A DNA stretch of 43,622 nucleotides, taken from positions 1 through 43,622 of the forward strand of contig JAJZTU010000003.1 in assembly GCA_021848765.1 (NCBI GenBank), given 5' to 3'. The DNA comes from Bacillota bacterium (GTDB taxonomy: Bacteria > Bacillota > GCA-003054495 > Carboxydocellales > JAJZTU01). Shown here in pieces: positions 20,971 through 42,534 of the stretch (positions are counted from its first letter, which is position 1; the number at the start of each line of letters is the position of its first letter). A program made the translations under genes and the position numbers. The notes beneath the pieces were generated by a model. The model was not told the DNA's origin. It ran no database searches and was given only the letters and a program-made list of their open reading frames with translations.

Positions 20971-21047
20971 AATAAAAAAACTCCTACCAGTGATCCGGTA
21001 GGAGCTATCAGCTGTGAAAACAGCGGTTAAGGCGAGCCCCATCGCCT
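20971..21047 (-). ncRNA. Fluoride (crcB) riboswitch with overlapping intrinsic terminator
   Basis: Minus strand GGCGATGGGGCTCGCCTTAACCGCTGTTTTCACAGCTGATAGCTCCTACC matches the crcB-motif aptamer. CTCCTACCGGATCACTGGTAGGAG followed by a T-tract is the expression platform. Confidence 0.94.
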
Positions 21048-21136
21048 TTGTCTTTATTTGTTTTATATTTATTCTCTCTTTTTCCGTAATTTCCTTCTAT
21101 TCTTCTTGATTATTGAGAGCCTTTGGCAAAAAAAAT

Positions 21137-38763: not shown

Positions 38764-39831
38764 CTACTCTTCTACCAGCTTGCGTTTCAGCAAATCAATC
38801 ATGTTTACAGGAGTAGGGTCAATCCCGTACAGGGTAGCCAGGTAAACACTGACATAATCCCCTATGTATGTCAGGGAAAAGGTGCGGGCCAGGGTAGTGT
38901 TGCCTCTGGAATGAACCTCAGTGATACCGGAGACTGCTTTTCCCATGATAGTTTTACTGATTTCCATGCGCTTCTGGACCCGGGGATGGTCAGCTTGATC
39001 CCGCAGGATGATAATTTCCAGATTATTAAGCAGTTGGCCGGGGGCCTCAAAACCCACGATTTCGTTGTGGTTCATTTCCGGCAGGACATTCCAGTAAGCT
39101 GCGGCCTTGGCATTTTCGTTAATCTGGCCCTTCCAGCGGGTGGCCACAACCTCTGTGGTTCCTGATGCGCCGTAGATGACCGGAATTTTATTATACACCT
39201 TCAGGGCGATTGTTTTGGCCTGGTTATTTTCCACCGGGCTTTCCGGCTTGAGAACTTCCCGCAGCTCTTTCAGGTTGCTAATGGCATCCTCGATTTCTGC
39301 GCTAGCATCAGGAATCAGGCCCAGGCGTTGCAGCACCACCACAGTGGGAATAAACAGGTAGCCGGTAGCGGCCCGGGGAGAAATTCCTCCCGGGATGGTT
39401 ATCACGGGCACCCCGTCATTGCCGGCGAGTTCTTTCAGCTTTCCACCGGTGGTAATTACCACGATTTTTGCCCCTTTGGCAATAGCCTGCTGATAAGCGC
39501 TTAAGGTCTCCTCGGTATTGCCGGAAAAGCTGGTAGCAAACAGCAGGGTCTGCGGACCCACAAAATTAGGCAGGGTATAATCACGGTTGACAATCACCGG
39601 GATTCCCGCTTTATCCCCCACATATACCCTGAGCAGGTCACCACCAATAGCCGAGCCTCCCAGGCCGGTGACCATAATCTGGGTAAAGCCCTGATAGCCC
39701 TGGGGAAGCCCGGCTTCCTTGGCAATGGCCAGGGCCTCAGCACACTGTTCAGGCAGCCTCCAGACGGCCTCCAGCATTTTCCCCGGGTCATTGCCGAGAA
39801 TGGTTTGGACGCTGTTAAGTTTTGAATGCAT
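38764..39831 (-). CDS. Bifunctional phosphoglucose/phosphomannose isomerase
   Basis: SIS domain: VTGLGGSAIGGDLLR...ATSFSGNTEETLSAYQQA; C-terminal bact-PGI domain. Confidence 0.92.
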   Translation of the reverse strand: MHSKLNSVQTILGNDPGKMLEAVWRLPEQCAEALAIAKEAGLPQGYQGFTQIMVTGLGGSAIGGDLLRVYVGDKAGIPVIVNRDYTLPNFVGPQTLLFATSFSGNTEETLSAYQQAIAKGAKIVVITTGGKLKELAGNDGVPVITIPGGISPRAATGYLFIPTVVVLQRLGLIPDASAEIEDAISNLKELREVLKPESPVENNQAKTIALKVYNKIPVIYGASGTTEVVATRWKGQINENAKAAAYWNVLPEMNHNEIVGFEAPGQLLNNLEIIILRDQADHPRVQKRMEISKTIMGKAVSGITEVHSRGNTTLARTFSLTYIGDYVSVYLATLYGIDPTPVNMIDLLKRKLVEE

Positions 39832-39897
39832 AGTAAGTACCTCCTTATAAACTTTTGTTTTTATAAATAATGTGGCCCGGATAATTACGACCGGTCG

Positions 39898-40105
39898 GAT
39901 ACCTGTCCCGGTTCGGTGCTCTTAGTTCCGTACCTAGCAGCTCTAAGCTTGGTGTGCTAATAAAATCGACCAACCTTGCTGATGGGGCATCCGTGCCCCC
40001 AGCAAGGTTGCCGGCGTCCATGCCGGCAAGGTCGATTTTATTGCACACCCGCGCTAAGAGCTGCTACGGTACTCCACCATGAGCACCTAAACCGGGACAG
40101 GTATC
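39898..40105 (+). repeat. Structured unit, copy 1 (three-way junction)
   Basis: Basal stem GATACCTGTCCCGGTT..GGTGCTC (39898-39921) / GAGCACCTAAACCGGGACAGGTATC (40081-40105). Central stem GGTGTGCTAATAAAATCGACC (39951-39971) / GGTCGATTTTATTGCACACC (40030-40049). Two apical hairpins at 39972-40009 and 40010-40027. Confidence 0.9.
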
Positions 40106-40265
40106 CTCCCTGACCAAAGTTTCTGCGTGGTTGCCGCACACTCTCACCGGGAAACGGATAGCAAAACGGGGTAACTCTGCCTGATAAGGGACTGGACCGG
40201 GGCACCGTTCGGGATAACTGTTTTATCAGGCCGGGGCTACCGGTCCCTGGTAACTTATTCGCCCA

Positions 40266-40483
40266 GGCCGGGGCTACCTGCCGGTGAAGGAGCGACTCGC
40301 GGAGTACGGTAGCAGTTCTTAGCGAAGGTGCGCAACAGAATCGACCTTGCCGGCATGGACGCCGGCAACCTCGGCGGGGGCACGGACGCCCCATCGCCGA
40401 GGTCGGTCGATTCTGTTAGCGCACCAAGCTTAGAACTGCTCTGTGCGGAGCGTGGAGCTCCAAACCGGCAGGTAGTCCCGGCC
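40266..40483 (-). repeat. Structured unit, copy 2 (inverted relative to copy 1)
   Basis: Basal stem GGCCGGGGCTACCTGCCGGT (40266-40285) / ACCGGCAGGTAGTCCCGGCC (40464-40483). The reverse complement aligns with copy 1 across the whole core, with compensatory stem changes. Confidence 0.9.
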
Positions 40484-40569
40484 GGAGACAAAAACGAGTC
40501 CGGCCAGAGCAAAACAGGTATCGACCCGACGAATTAGCTTAACAGGCAGTAAAGCGTGCAACATTTCCC

Positions 40570-42534
40570 TCACGGCCTGATCTCCAAAACCTCCTCCGCA
40601 TAGGCCCGCAAAACCTCAGCCACTCCCCAGGCCTGAGCATAACACCCCCTGGGCTCATGGGGATGGTCCCCGTCGAAGATTTCGGATATGCTGCCTACAC
40701 CGTGGTCAAAGAGCTGGCCTTTGAAGGGCTCAATCAGCTTTTCCGCTACCACCTGGCTTTCCTGAGAATAGTCATTGACCTTGCGGTAGGCGCTGATAAA
40801 GGGGCCAATCAGCCAACTCCAGGCTGTCCCCTGGTGATAGGCCCCATCCCTTTGTAAGCGGTCTCCCCTGTAATGGCCTTTGTACTGGGGGTCCTCCGGG
40901 GAGAGGCTGCGCAGCCCATAAGGAGTGTATAGATGCTGCCAAACCTTACGGACGATTTTGACCTCTTTGGAGTGGTCCAGCATGGAAAAGGGGAGCGCAA
41001 CAGCGATAATCTGGTTGGGGCGGATGGAACCATCCTTGCGTTCCCCAATGACGTCATAAAGGCACCCGGTAGAATCATTCCAGAATTCCTGAATAAAGCT
41101 CTTCCTCACTTTTTGGGCCAGTTGATTGTAGGCCTTGGGATTATCGTCAAACTTCTGGGCCAGCTTCTCCATTACCCGCAGGGCATTATACCACAGGGCA
41201 TTTATCTCCACAGGCTTACCATGCCTGGGTGTCACTACCCAATCATCTACCTTGGCGTCCATCCAGGTGAGTTGAAGCCCGTGACTGCCTGCGGAAACCA
41301 GACCGTCTTTATCTACGTGGATATTGAAATGGGTCCCTTTCAGGTGGTATTCCACAATTTGCTTTAACACAGGGTAGATGATATCCCGGATAAAGTCGTA
41401 GTTGCCGGTGTAGCGCAAGTATTTATGCACAGCATGAAAAAACCACAGGGAGGCGTCCACAGTATTGTAATCAGGATTTAACCCTTCGTCGGGGAACCGG
41501 TTAGGTATGAGTCCGTCCTTACAATAGCGGGCAAAGGTGGTAAGTATCTCCTTGGCAGCATCAAAGCGTTTGGTAACCAGGGTCAGGCCGGGCAGGGCGA
41601 TCATAGTATCCCGGCCCCAGTCGGTAAACCACGGGTAACCGGCAATGACTGTCTTAGTCCCGGTTGATTCCCGCCGGACGATGAAATTGTCTGCCGCCAC
41701 CACCAGACGGTTGATAAATTCATGGCCATAGCCGGCCTTTTCCACCAGTTGGGAAAGGCGCTTTTCTTCCTGAACCTGCCAGAGTTGGCTGTTGACAGGC
41801 TTAACCGGCTCAGTTGAAGCCACAATCGCAAAACTGCCGCCGCCGGTTAGTTTTACTTCAAACTCACCGGGCATAAAGTGGTCTTCCCATTTGTCCTCCC
41901 CCCGGCTTTCCTCAACGATATAATGGAGTCCCTCAAACCAATAGCCCGGGCCCTGGCTATACCGGGCGCCCTCTCCTGCCAGATAGAGCTTGGGAGCGCC
42001 TGGAAAGGCTTCAATTACCACTCCGTTTCCTTCCGGCTGCTGGTAAAAGGGCCACTGGTTACGGCGGGTGAGCCAGTGGTAATCCCGGCAGTTAATTAAG
42101 GGAGTAATTTTCAGATCTATTGCTTTATCAGGACTGGTATAGACGTTGTACCGGATTACAGTGGTATTCCGGCCGTGGACCATGAACACGATTTTTTCAA
42201 TTAAAACATCTTGGATGCTGTACAGGTAAGTAGGCAGGGGGTGGGTACTAAATTGCTGCAAATAGCGGTGGCCCTGAGGATACAGCCCATTGGCCGTATC
42301 ATTTACTCCCAGAGCGAATTCCCGGTTTTCTATGCATACCCGTTCCTCCAGTTTGGCCAGCAGGAGTGTGCGGTCTGTAGGAGGGCGTAAAGCAGCGAAG
42401 AGCAGACCGTGGTACCGGCGGGTATTGGCTCCCAGGATGGTGGAAGAAGCAAATCCGCCCAAGCCGTTGGTAACCAACCATTCCTTTTCAATTGCGCGTC
42501 CGAAATCTTTCAACTCCGCCTTACCAAAAGTCAT
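40570..42534 (-). CDS. Amylo-alpha-1,6-glucosidase (glycogen debranching enzyme)
   Basis: EKEWLVTNGLGGFASSTILGANTRRYHGLLFAAL ... GYPWFTDWGRDTMIALPGL. Confidence 0.95.
   Translation of the reverse strand: MTFGKAELKDFGRAIEKEWLVTNGLGGFASSTILGANTRRYHGLLFAALRPPTDRTLLLAKLEERVCIENREFALGVNDTANGLYPQGHRYLQQFSTHPLPTYLYSIQDVLIEKIVFMVHGRNTTVIRYNVYTSPDKAIDLKITPLINCRDYHWLTRRNQWPFYQQPEGNGVVIEAFPGAPKLYLAGEGARYSQGPGYWFEGLHYIVEESRGEDKWEDHFMPGEFEVKLTGGGSFAIVASTEPVKPVNSQLWQVQEEKRLSQLVEKAGYGHEFINRLVVAADNFIVRRESTGTKTVIAGYPWFTDWGRDTMIALPGLTLVTKRFDAAKEILTTFARYCKDGLIPNRFPDEGLNPDYNTVDASLWFFHAVHKYLRYTGNYDFIRDIIYPVLKQIVEYHLKGTHFNIHVDKDGLVSAGSHGLQLTWMDAKVDDWVVTPRHGKPVEINALWYNALRVMEKLAQKFDDNPKAYNQLAQKVRKSFIQEFWNDSTGCLYDVIGERKDGSIRPNQIIAVALPFSMLDHSKEVKIVRKVWQHLYTPYGLRSLSPEDPQYKGHYRGDRLQRDGAYHQGTAWSWLIGPFISAYRKVNDYSQESQVVAEKLIEPFKGQLFDHGVGSISEIFDGDHPHEPRGCYAQAWGVAEVLRAYAEEVLEIRP

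Follow-up and report, generated by a model that had tools for sequence, protein, structure and literature searches.

We found that two copies of TwoAYGGAY, a structured RNA motif filed in Rfam as RF01731, lie between the genes for glycogen debranching enzyme and phosphoglucose/phosphomannose isomerase (pgi) in the window, by which we mean the whole 43,622-nt stretch of DNA that was analysed. Taken together, our results make it very probable that TwoAYGGAY is a family of non-coding MITEs that are moved in trans by way of their terminal inverted repeats (TIRs), in Thermoanaerobacter most likely by an enzyme of the IS1182 family. The novelty is that MITEs make up a family which already bears a name as an RNA, and that in Thermoanaerobacter these MITEs insert at terminators, with duplications of hairpin length and with ends in common with an IS1182-family insertion sequence. 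The literature passages on the motif that we covered give no description of TwoAYGGAY as mobile; an earlier description elsewhere is possible.

In the window, 738 non-coding bases separate the debranching-enzyme gene from pgi (Table 1). An earlier note on this DNA had seen two inverted structured halves there and had proposed that outer inverted repeats bound them as one MITE- or REPIN-like element of ~655 bp. The two halves are indeed present as inverted arms of 188 nt each (39908-40095 and 40281-40468), which are 81% complementary and lie 185 nt apart, and the observation that no plausible protein is encoded within 39882-40536 also holds, the longest ORF being an overlapping 118-aa frame. 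What had been missed is that each half is a member of a described Rfam family. Both halves matched RF01731 over the full model length and above its gathering score of 43 bits in cmscan, and a relaxed Rfam scan returned no other credible family for the region. The AYGGAY-type loops are ATGGAC and ACGGAT in unit A, and ATGGAC and ACGGAC in unit B. Neither this region nor a copy from Thermoanaerobacter matched any plasmid or phage record in blastn.

The imperfect inverted match of 39882-39906 to 40514-40536 was also confirmed, with identity in 21 of the 25 columns of the alignment, and none of 5000 random 23-mers from the window scored as high. However, the two members of this outer pair are homologous, each being the right terminus of one of the inverted copies, so that they bound the pair without defining a larger element. 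The proposed ~655-bp unit therefore gives way to two elements, since each half is a separate element of ~240-280 bp with better TIRs of its own and the spacer between them is unique. The unit boundaries in Table 1 are approximate and were set by comparison with other copies.

Table 1. Features of the two TwoAYGGAY units and their flanking genes (positions in the window)
Feature	Position	Strand	Basis or remark
pgi, bifunctional phosphoglucose/phosphomannose isomerase	38764..39831	-	downstream of insertion; NCBIfam NF006426, 551.6 bits
Unit A, complete TwoAYGGAY element	39882..40119	- (RNA strand)	homology to other copies, end alignment
TIR of unit A, right end (GGATACCTGTCCCGGTT)	39897..39913		perfect 17-bp inverted match to 40090-40106
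RF01731 core of unit A, 54.5 bits	39923..40079	-	cmscan
TIR of unit A, left end	40090..40106		perfect 17-bp inverted match to 39897-39913
Spacer between units	40120..40259		folds into hairpin; second copy of left-end fragment at 40227-40241
Unit B, TwoAYGGAY element with extra right-end module	40260..40536	+ (RNA strand)	homology to other copies
TIR of unit B, left end	40266..40285		19/20 bp inverted match to 40464-40483
RF01731 core of unit B, 53.5 bits	40297..40453	+	cmscan
TIR of unit B, right end	40464..40483		19/20 bp inverted match to 40266-40285
Extra right-end module of unit B	40484..40536	+	ends in the outer repeat at 40514-40536; same module after most copies
Glycogen debranching enzyme gene	40570..42534	-	upstream of insertion; Pfam GDE_C 4.8e-144, GDE_N 1.7e-76; NCBIfam TIGR01561

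The earlier note had named multiple copies in the host genome as a mark of a mobile element, and these were readily found. The window's genome (3.33 Mb in 374 contigs, 83% complete) carries 16 RF01731 matches, and blastn with the whole pair gave 75 pieces on dozens of contigs, a figure that includes double-counted places, as the two halves match each other. Full or partial copies number in dozens, with element ends of the form TTACGACCGGTCGGATACCTG, and they are accompanied by end-only derivatives such as GGATACCTGTCCCGG-CACCGAA-CCGGGACAGGTATCC on contig C115, with similar ones on C353, C188 and C150. None of the 75 pieces covers the spacer, of which this blastn search found no copy elsewhere in the genome. 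Most copies are single. Three further divergent pairs were identified on C363, C68 and C258, and their spacers are unrelated to one another and to that of the window, indicating that the inverted pair is not the mobile unit.

Some further features of these copies were observed. All four two-copy clusters (C20, C363, C68 and C258) are divergent, the minus-strand copy preceding the plus-strand copy. A right-end module of ~45-57 bp (GGTATCCGACCGGAGACAAAAAGAGTCCGGCCA) is tandemly iterated at some copies (L020, L003 and others). Some TwoAYGGAY units seem to have been invaded by a different repeat, bounded by sequences like AGGGACCCCACCCCC and the reverse complement, as at ~1253-1601 of L115 (C209) and in L046 (C244).

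An empty site for the window's insertion was identified in G013, a genome of another family, in which the operon order debranching enzyme - pgi - PHP - ROK kinase is kept (amino-acid identities to the window's operon of 64.5, 66, 59 and 51%, respectively). There, the gap from debranching enzyme to pgi measures ~30 bp, against 738 in the window, so that the empty orthologous site proposed as a check by the earlier note does exist; G013 carries RF01731 copies at other places. G013 is the closest comparison at this locus because pgi matches were very weak in the three genomes of the same order. As judged from the two gaps, the ~30 bp in G013 speak for insertion in the window's lineage; loss in G013 at this single locus is possible, G013 being of another family. 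Copy number and empty site together support mobility in the window's own genome.

At a larger scale, RF01731 is present in 9 of 61 relatives and, in a patchy manner, in 51 of 399 Bacillota genomes drawn from the phylum, with one to 29 copies per positive genome. The copies are dispersed and share no conserved gene neighbour. Across the lineages examined, the core sits within inverted terminal sequences, and these terminal sequences differ between lineages, with TIRs of another kind in G013, G030, G047 and G059. The cis-regulatory label in Rfam is unsupported in view of the dispersed copies, the lack of a common gene neighbour, the patchy occurrence and the empty site found here.

We then analysed the mode of insertion in Thermoanaerobacter (genus g65 in our set). 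Among the first 18 copies aligned, the common ends are of the form TCAGACTGTAGACAAAC...TTTGTCAACAAACTGA, and almost every copy has one and the same locus-specific hairpin on either side. A pattern built on the TIRs occurred 33 to 195 times per genome of this genus, as compared with 0-3 times for the reversed-pattern control, indicating that the Rfam model detects only part of the family. The pattern was found in T. wiegelii Rt8.B1, T. thermocopriae, strains A7A and Bu09, and one Clostridia MAG. Among 101 distinct TIR-bounded elements from the Thermoanaerobacter genomes and the G033 lineage, 69 are abutted by a direct repeat of 14-30 bp (0.3% of mismatched flank pairs). These repeats are palindromic, that is, hairpins, in 62 of the 69 cases (9% when shuffled), and a T or A run lies beside the repeat in 68, as at Rho-independent terminators. 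In addition, orthologous sites that lack the element carry a single hairpin: the L145 site in seven genomes (G083, G070, G086, G079, G075, G077 and G081), the L150 site in G086 and the L158 site in G075. Together, the orthologous single-hairpin sites and the duplicated hairpins demonstrate that the element DNA inserts. Target-site duplications, which the earlier note had listed among the things to look for, thus exist in Thermoanaerobacter and the G033 lineage, but were recognisable in none of 15 copies of the window's genome.

Two minor observations concern the Thermoanaerobacter copies. In an element version of 326-333 bp (L195-L199; T. wiegelii, G079), the stem next to the core is enlarged by an extra insert of ~65 bp. 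On the right, three elements of Thermoanaerobacter Bu09 without matching flanks (L320, L324 and L334) are all followed by GAGAGTAT...ATACTCTCTTTT, which may be a repeat next to them.

A partner transposase could be identified in Thermoanaerobacter. A stretch of 1562 bp at 237000-238561 of contig C1 in G075 (L194) is bounded by two TIR copies and contains the gene for a 491-aa DDE transposase, which matches the NCBIfam IS1182-family model NF033551 with 492.6 bits (cut-off 270) and Pfam PF13751. This 1.56-kb insertion sequence and the Thermoanaerobacter copies have ~16-bp TIRs in common, and the insertion sequence itself lies between duplicated hairpins, GCGCCCGTTAGGGCGC. As L194 and the Thermoanaerobacter MITEs have both the TIR and this unusual choice of target in common, an IS1182-family enzyme most likely moves these MITEs. 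No likeness between L194 and the MITE was evident by eye outside the TIRs, so the MITE probably did not arise from the insertion sequence by simple deletion. The transposase family and the targeting of terminator hairpins are shared with IS1272/TnSha1 of the IS1182 family (NCBIfam equivalog; PMC4923244). However, IS1272 is reported to make a blunt cut with part of the hairpin deleted and no duplication (PMC4923244), whereas the hairpin is duplicated around L194 and the Thermoanaerobacter MITEs.

An IS1182-type enzyme is not the partner everywhere, as PF13751 is no commoner than expected among the RF01731-positive relatives (6 of 9, against 25 of 52 negatives). In the window's genome, pattern and family searches of the incomplete assembly found no matching ends at its IS1182-type gene and no element ends at its three Y1 transposase loci. 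The co-occurring transposase suggested by the earlier note was found in Thermoanaerobacter (L194), but not in the window's incomplete genome. The window's copies may be old, or may have been moved by an enzyme absent from that assembly. Two other leads were rejected: of two inverted end-like sites that span 1.67 kb on C164, one is a real end and the other a chance match within a gene, and the G006 copies near IS605-type tnpA/tnpB are separated from these genes by another ORF.

Based on these results, we propose that a transposase acting in trans would recognise the TIRs of this protein-less element and mobilise it. In Thermoanaerobacter, the IS1182-family DDE transposase would act at the hairpin of a Rho-independent terminator, and insertion would leave the element between two whole copies of the hairpin (14-30 bp), so that neither neighbouring gene would lose its terminator. 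As for the window's lineage, two elements would have settled in a carbohydrate operon, in the gap from the debranching-enzyme gene to pgi, and we infer that a transposase moved them in like manner and that the conserved core with its GGA loops acts at the RNA level. The non-autonomous, MITE-like class named by the earlier note is borne out by the copies, the empty site and the TIRs, with duplications and a partner added by the relatives. TwoAYGGAY resembles bacterial MITEs in being short and non-coding, in its TIRs and in its many dispersed copies, and, in Thermoanaerobacter, also in the presence of an insertion sequence with identical TIRs and of target duplications. It differs from them in a structured core with near-invariant loops, which persists across lineages with different TIRs, and in a target duplication that comprises a whole terminator hairpin of variable length. 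As for RF01731 itself (Weinberg 2010, PMC2864571), the full-length matches above the gathering score and the two AYGGAY-type loops are the same, but the family is filed as a cis-regulatory structured RNA, whereas here it is a mobile unit of ~240-280 bp with TIRs and empty sites.

We further considered whether the conserved core points to a different explanation, namely that TwoAYGGAY is a structured regulatory RNA, either cis-regulatory or a CsrA-sequestering sRNA, whose copies are numerous for regulation and whose DNA is immobile. In 33 aligned cores that span many families, column identity averages 50%, yet the GGA of both loops is almost invariant, and double changes that keep the pairing were found at 15 of 17 consensus pairs, as would suit such an RNA. 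Moreover, the variants of Watson-Crick consensus pairs in the window's genome comprise 17-18 G-U against 2-3 A-C (p about 0.0004 to 0.003 in two alignment versions). Such a G-U excess would not arise from selection on a DNA palindrome and suggests an RNA-level role in the window's genome. In G062 the bias is weak (20 G-U against 8 A-C, p 0.036), and it is absent in four of six lineages, so RNA-level selection, although plausible, is not general on this evidence. In the passages on the motif, its discoverers considered it probably an RNA and scored it as not cis-regulatory (Weinberg 2010, PMC2864571), and a motif analysis of 2014 predicted CsrA sites in it (PMC4333381); the core loops are perhaps putative CsrA-binding sites. 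However, the empty sites and target duplications show DNA insertion, a conserved gene neighbour is absent, core-less end-only derivatives persist, and the pair variants are without strand bias in those four lineages, and we consider it improbable that the family is an immobile regulatory RNA. An RNA role and mobility could be compatible. In a bolder form, which we regard as unlikely but worth stating, the MITEs would carry a selected RNA whose core, with its two CsrA-like GGA loops, has been retained throughout the phylum, and the TIRs would have changed to suit different transposases; such a transposon family would bind or titrate a global RNA-binding regulator, and insertion at terminators would give it read-through transcription without harm to genes.

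The REPIN likeness drawn by the earlier note, in which the inverted pair would be the mobile unit and a RAYT/Y1 transposase its mover, gains from the three additional divergent pairs and from the occurrence of Y1_Tnp genes in all nine RF01731-positive relatives, as compared with 26 of 52 negatives. REP elements and REPINs with RAYT are likewise extragenic palindromes, sometimes in inverted pairs and with solo-hairpin derivatives. However, the mobile unit of TwoAYGGAY is one element, as the pair spacers are unrelated and unrepeated and single copies are the majority, the Y1 loci of the window's genome lack element ends, which led us to reject the Y1 transposase hinted at by co-occurrence, and the partner found in Thermoanaerobacter is an IS1182-family DDE transposase, not a RAYT. 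These results largely refute the REPIN-like explanation, which we consider very improbable. By contrast, it is quite possible, if somewhat short of probable, that the copies in the window's genome are old, immobile MITE remnants that persist only through drift or for the sake of their RNA or DNA structure. Similarity among the copies is mostly 75-91%, their ends are ragged and bear extra modules, and this genome yielded neither target duplications nor a partner, all in line with such remnants. On the other hand, 97% of the stem cells in these copies still pair, and a copy on C68 is 91% like unit A. As to origin, immobile remnants are compatible with our main explanation that TwoAYGGAY is a MITE family moved in trans.

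With TwoAYGGAY as a MITE family, a motif known since 2010 as a structured RNA without a function is a mobile-element family spread through Bacillota. RF01731 matches accordingly need a different annotation, and other orphan RNA motifs may also be MITEs. The Thermoanaerobacter elements offer a clear case of duplication of a whole terminator hairpin, in which the element enters between genes and each gene keeps its terminator. Given how deeply the two GGA loops are conserved, it becomes a testable question whether functional regulatory RNAs can be carried by transposons. Elsewhere in the window, we identified a fluoride riboswitch (RF01734) at 20992-21055 on the minus strand, with 57.3 bits.
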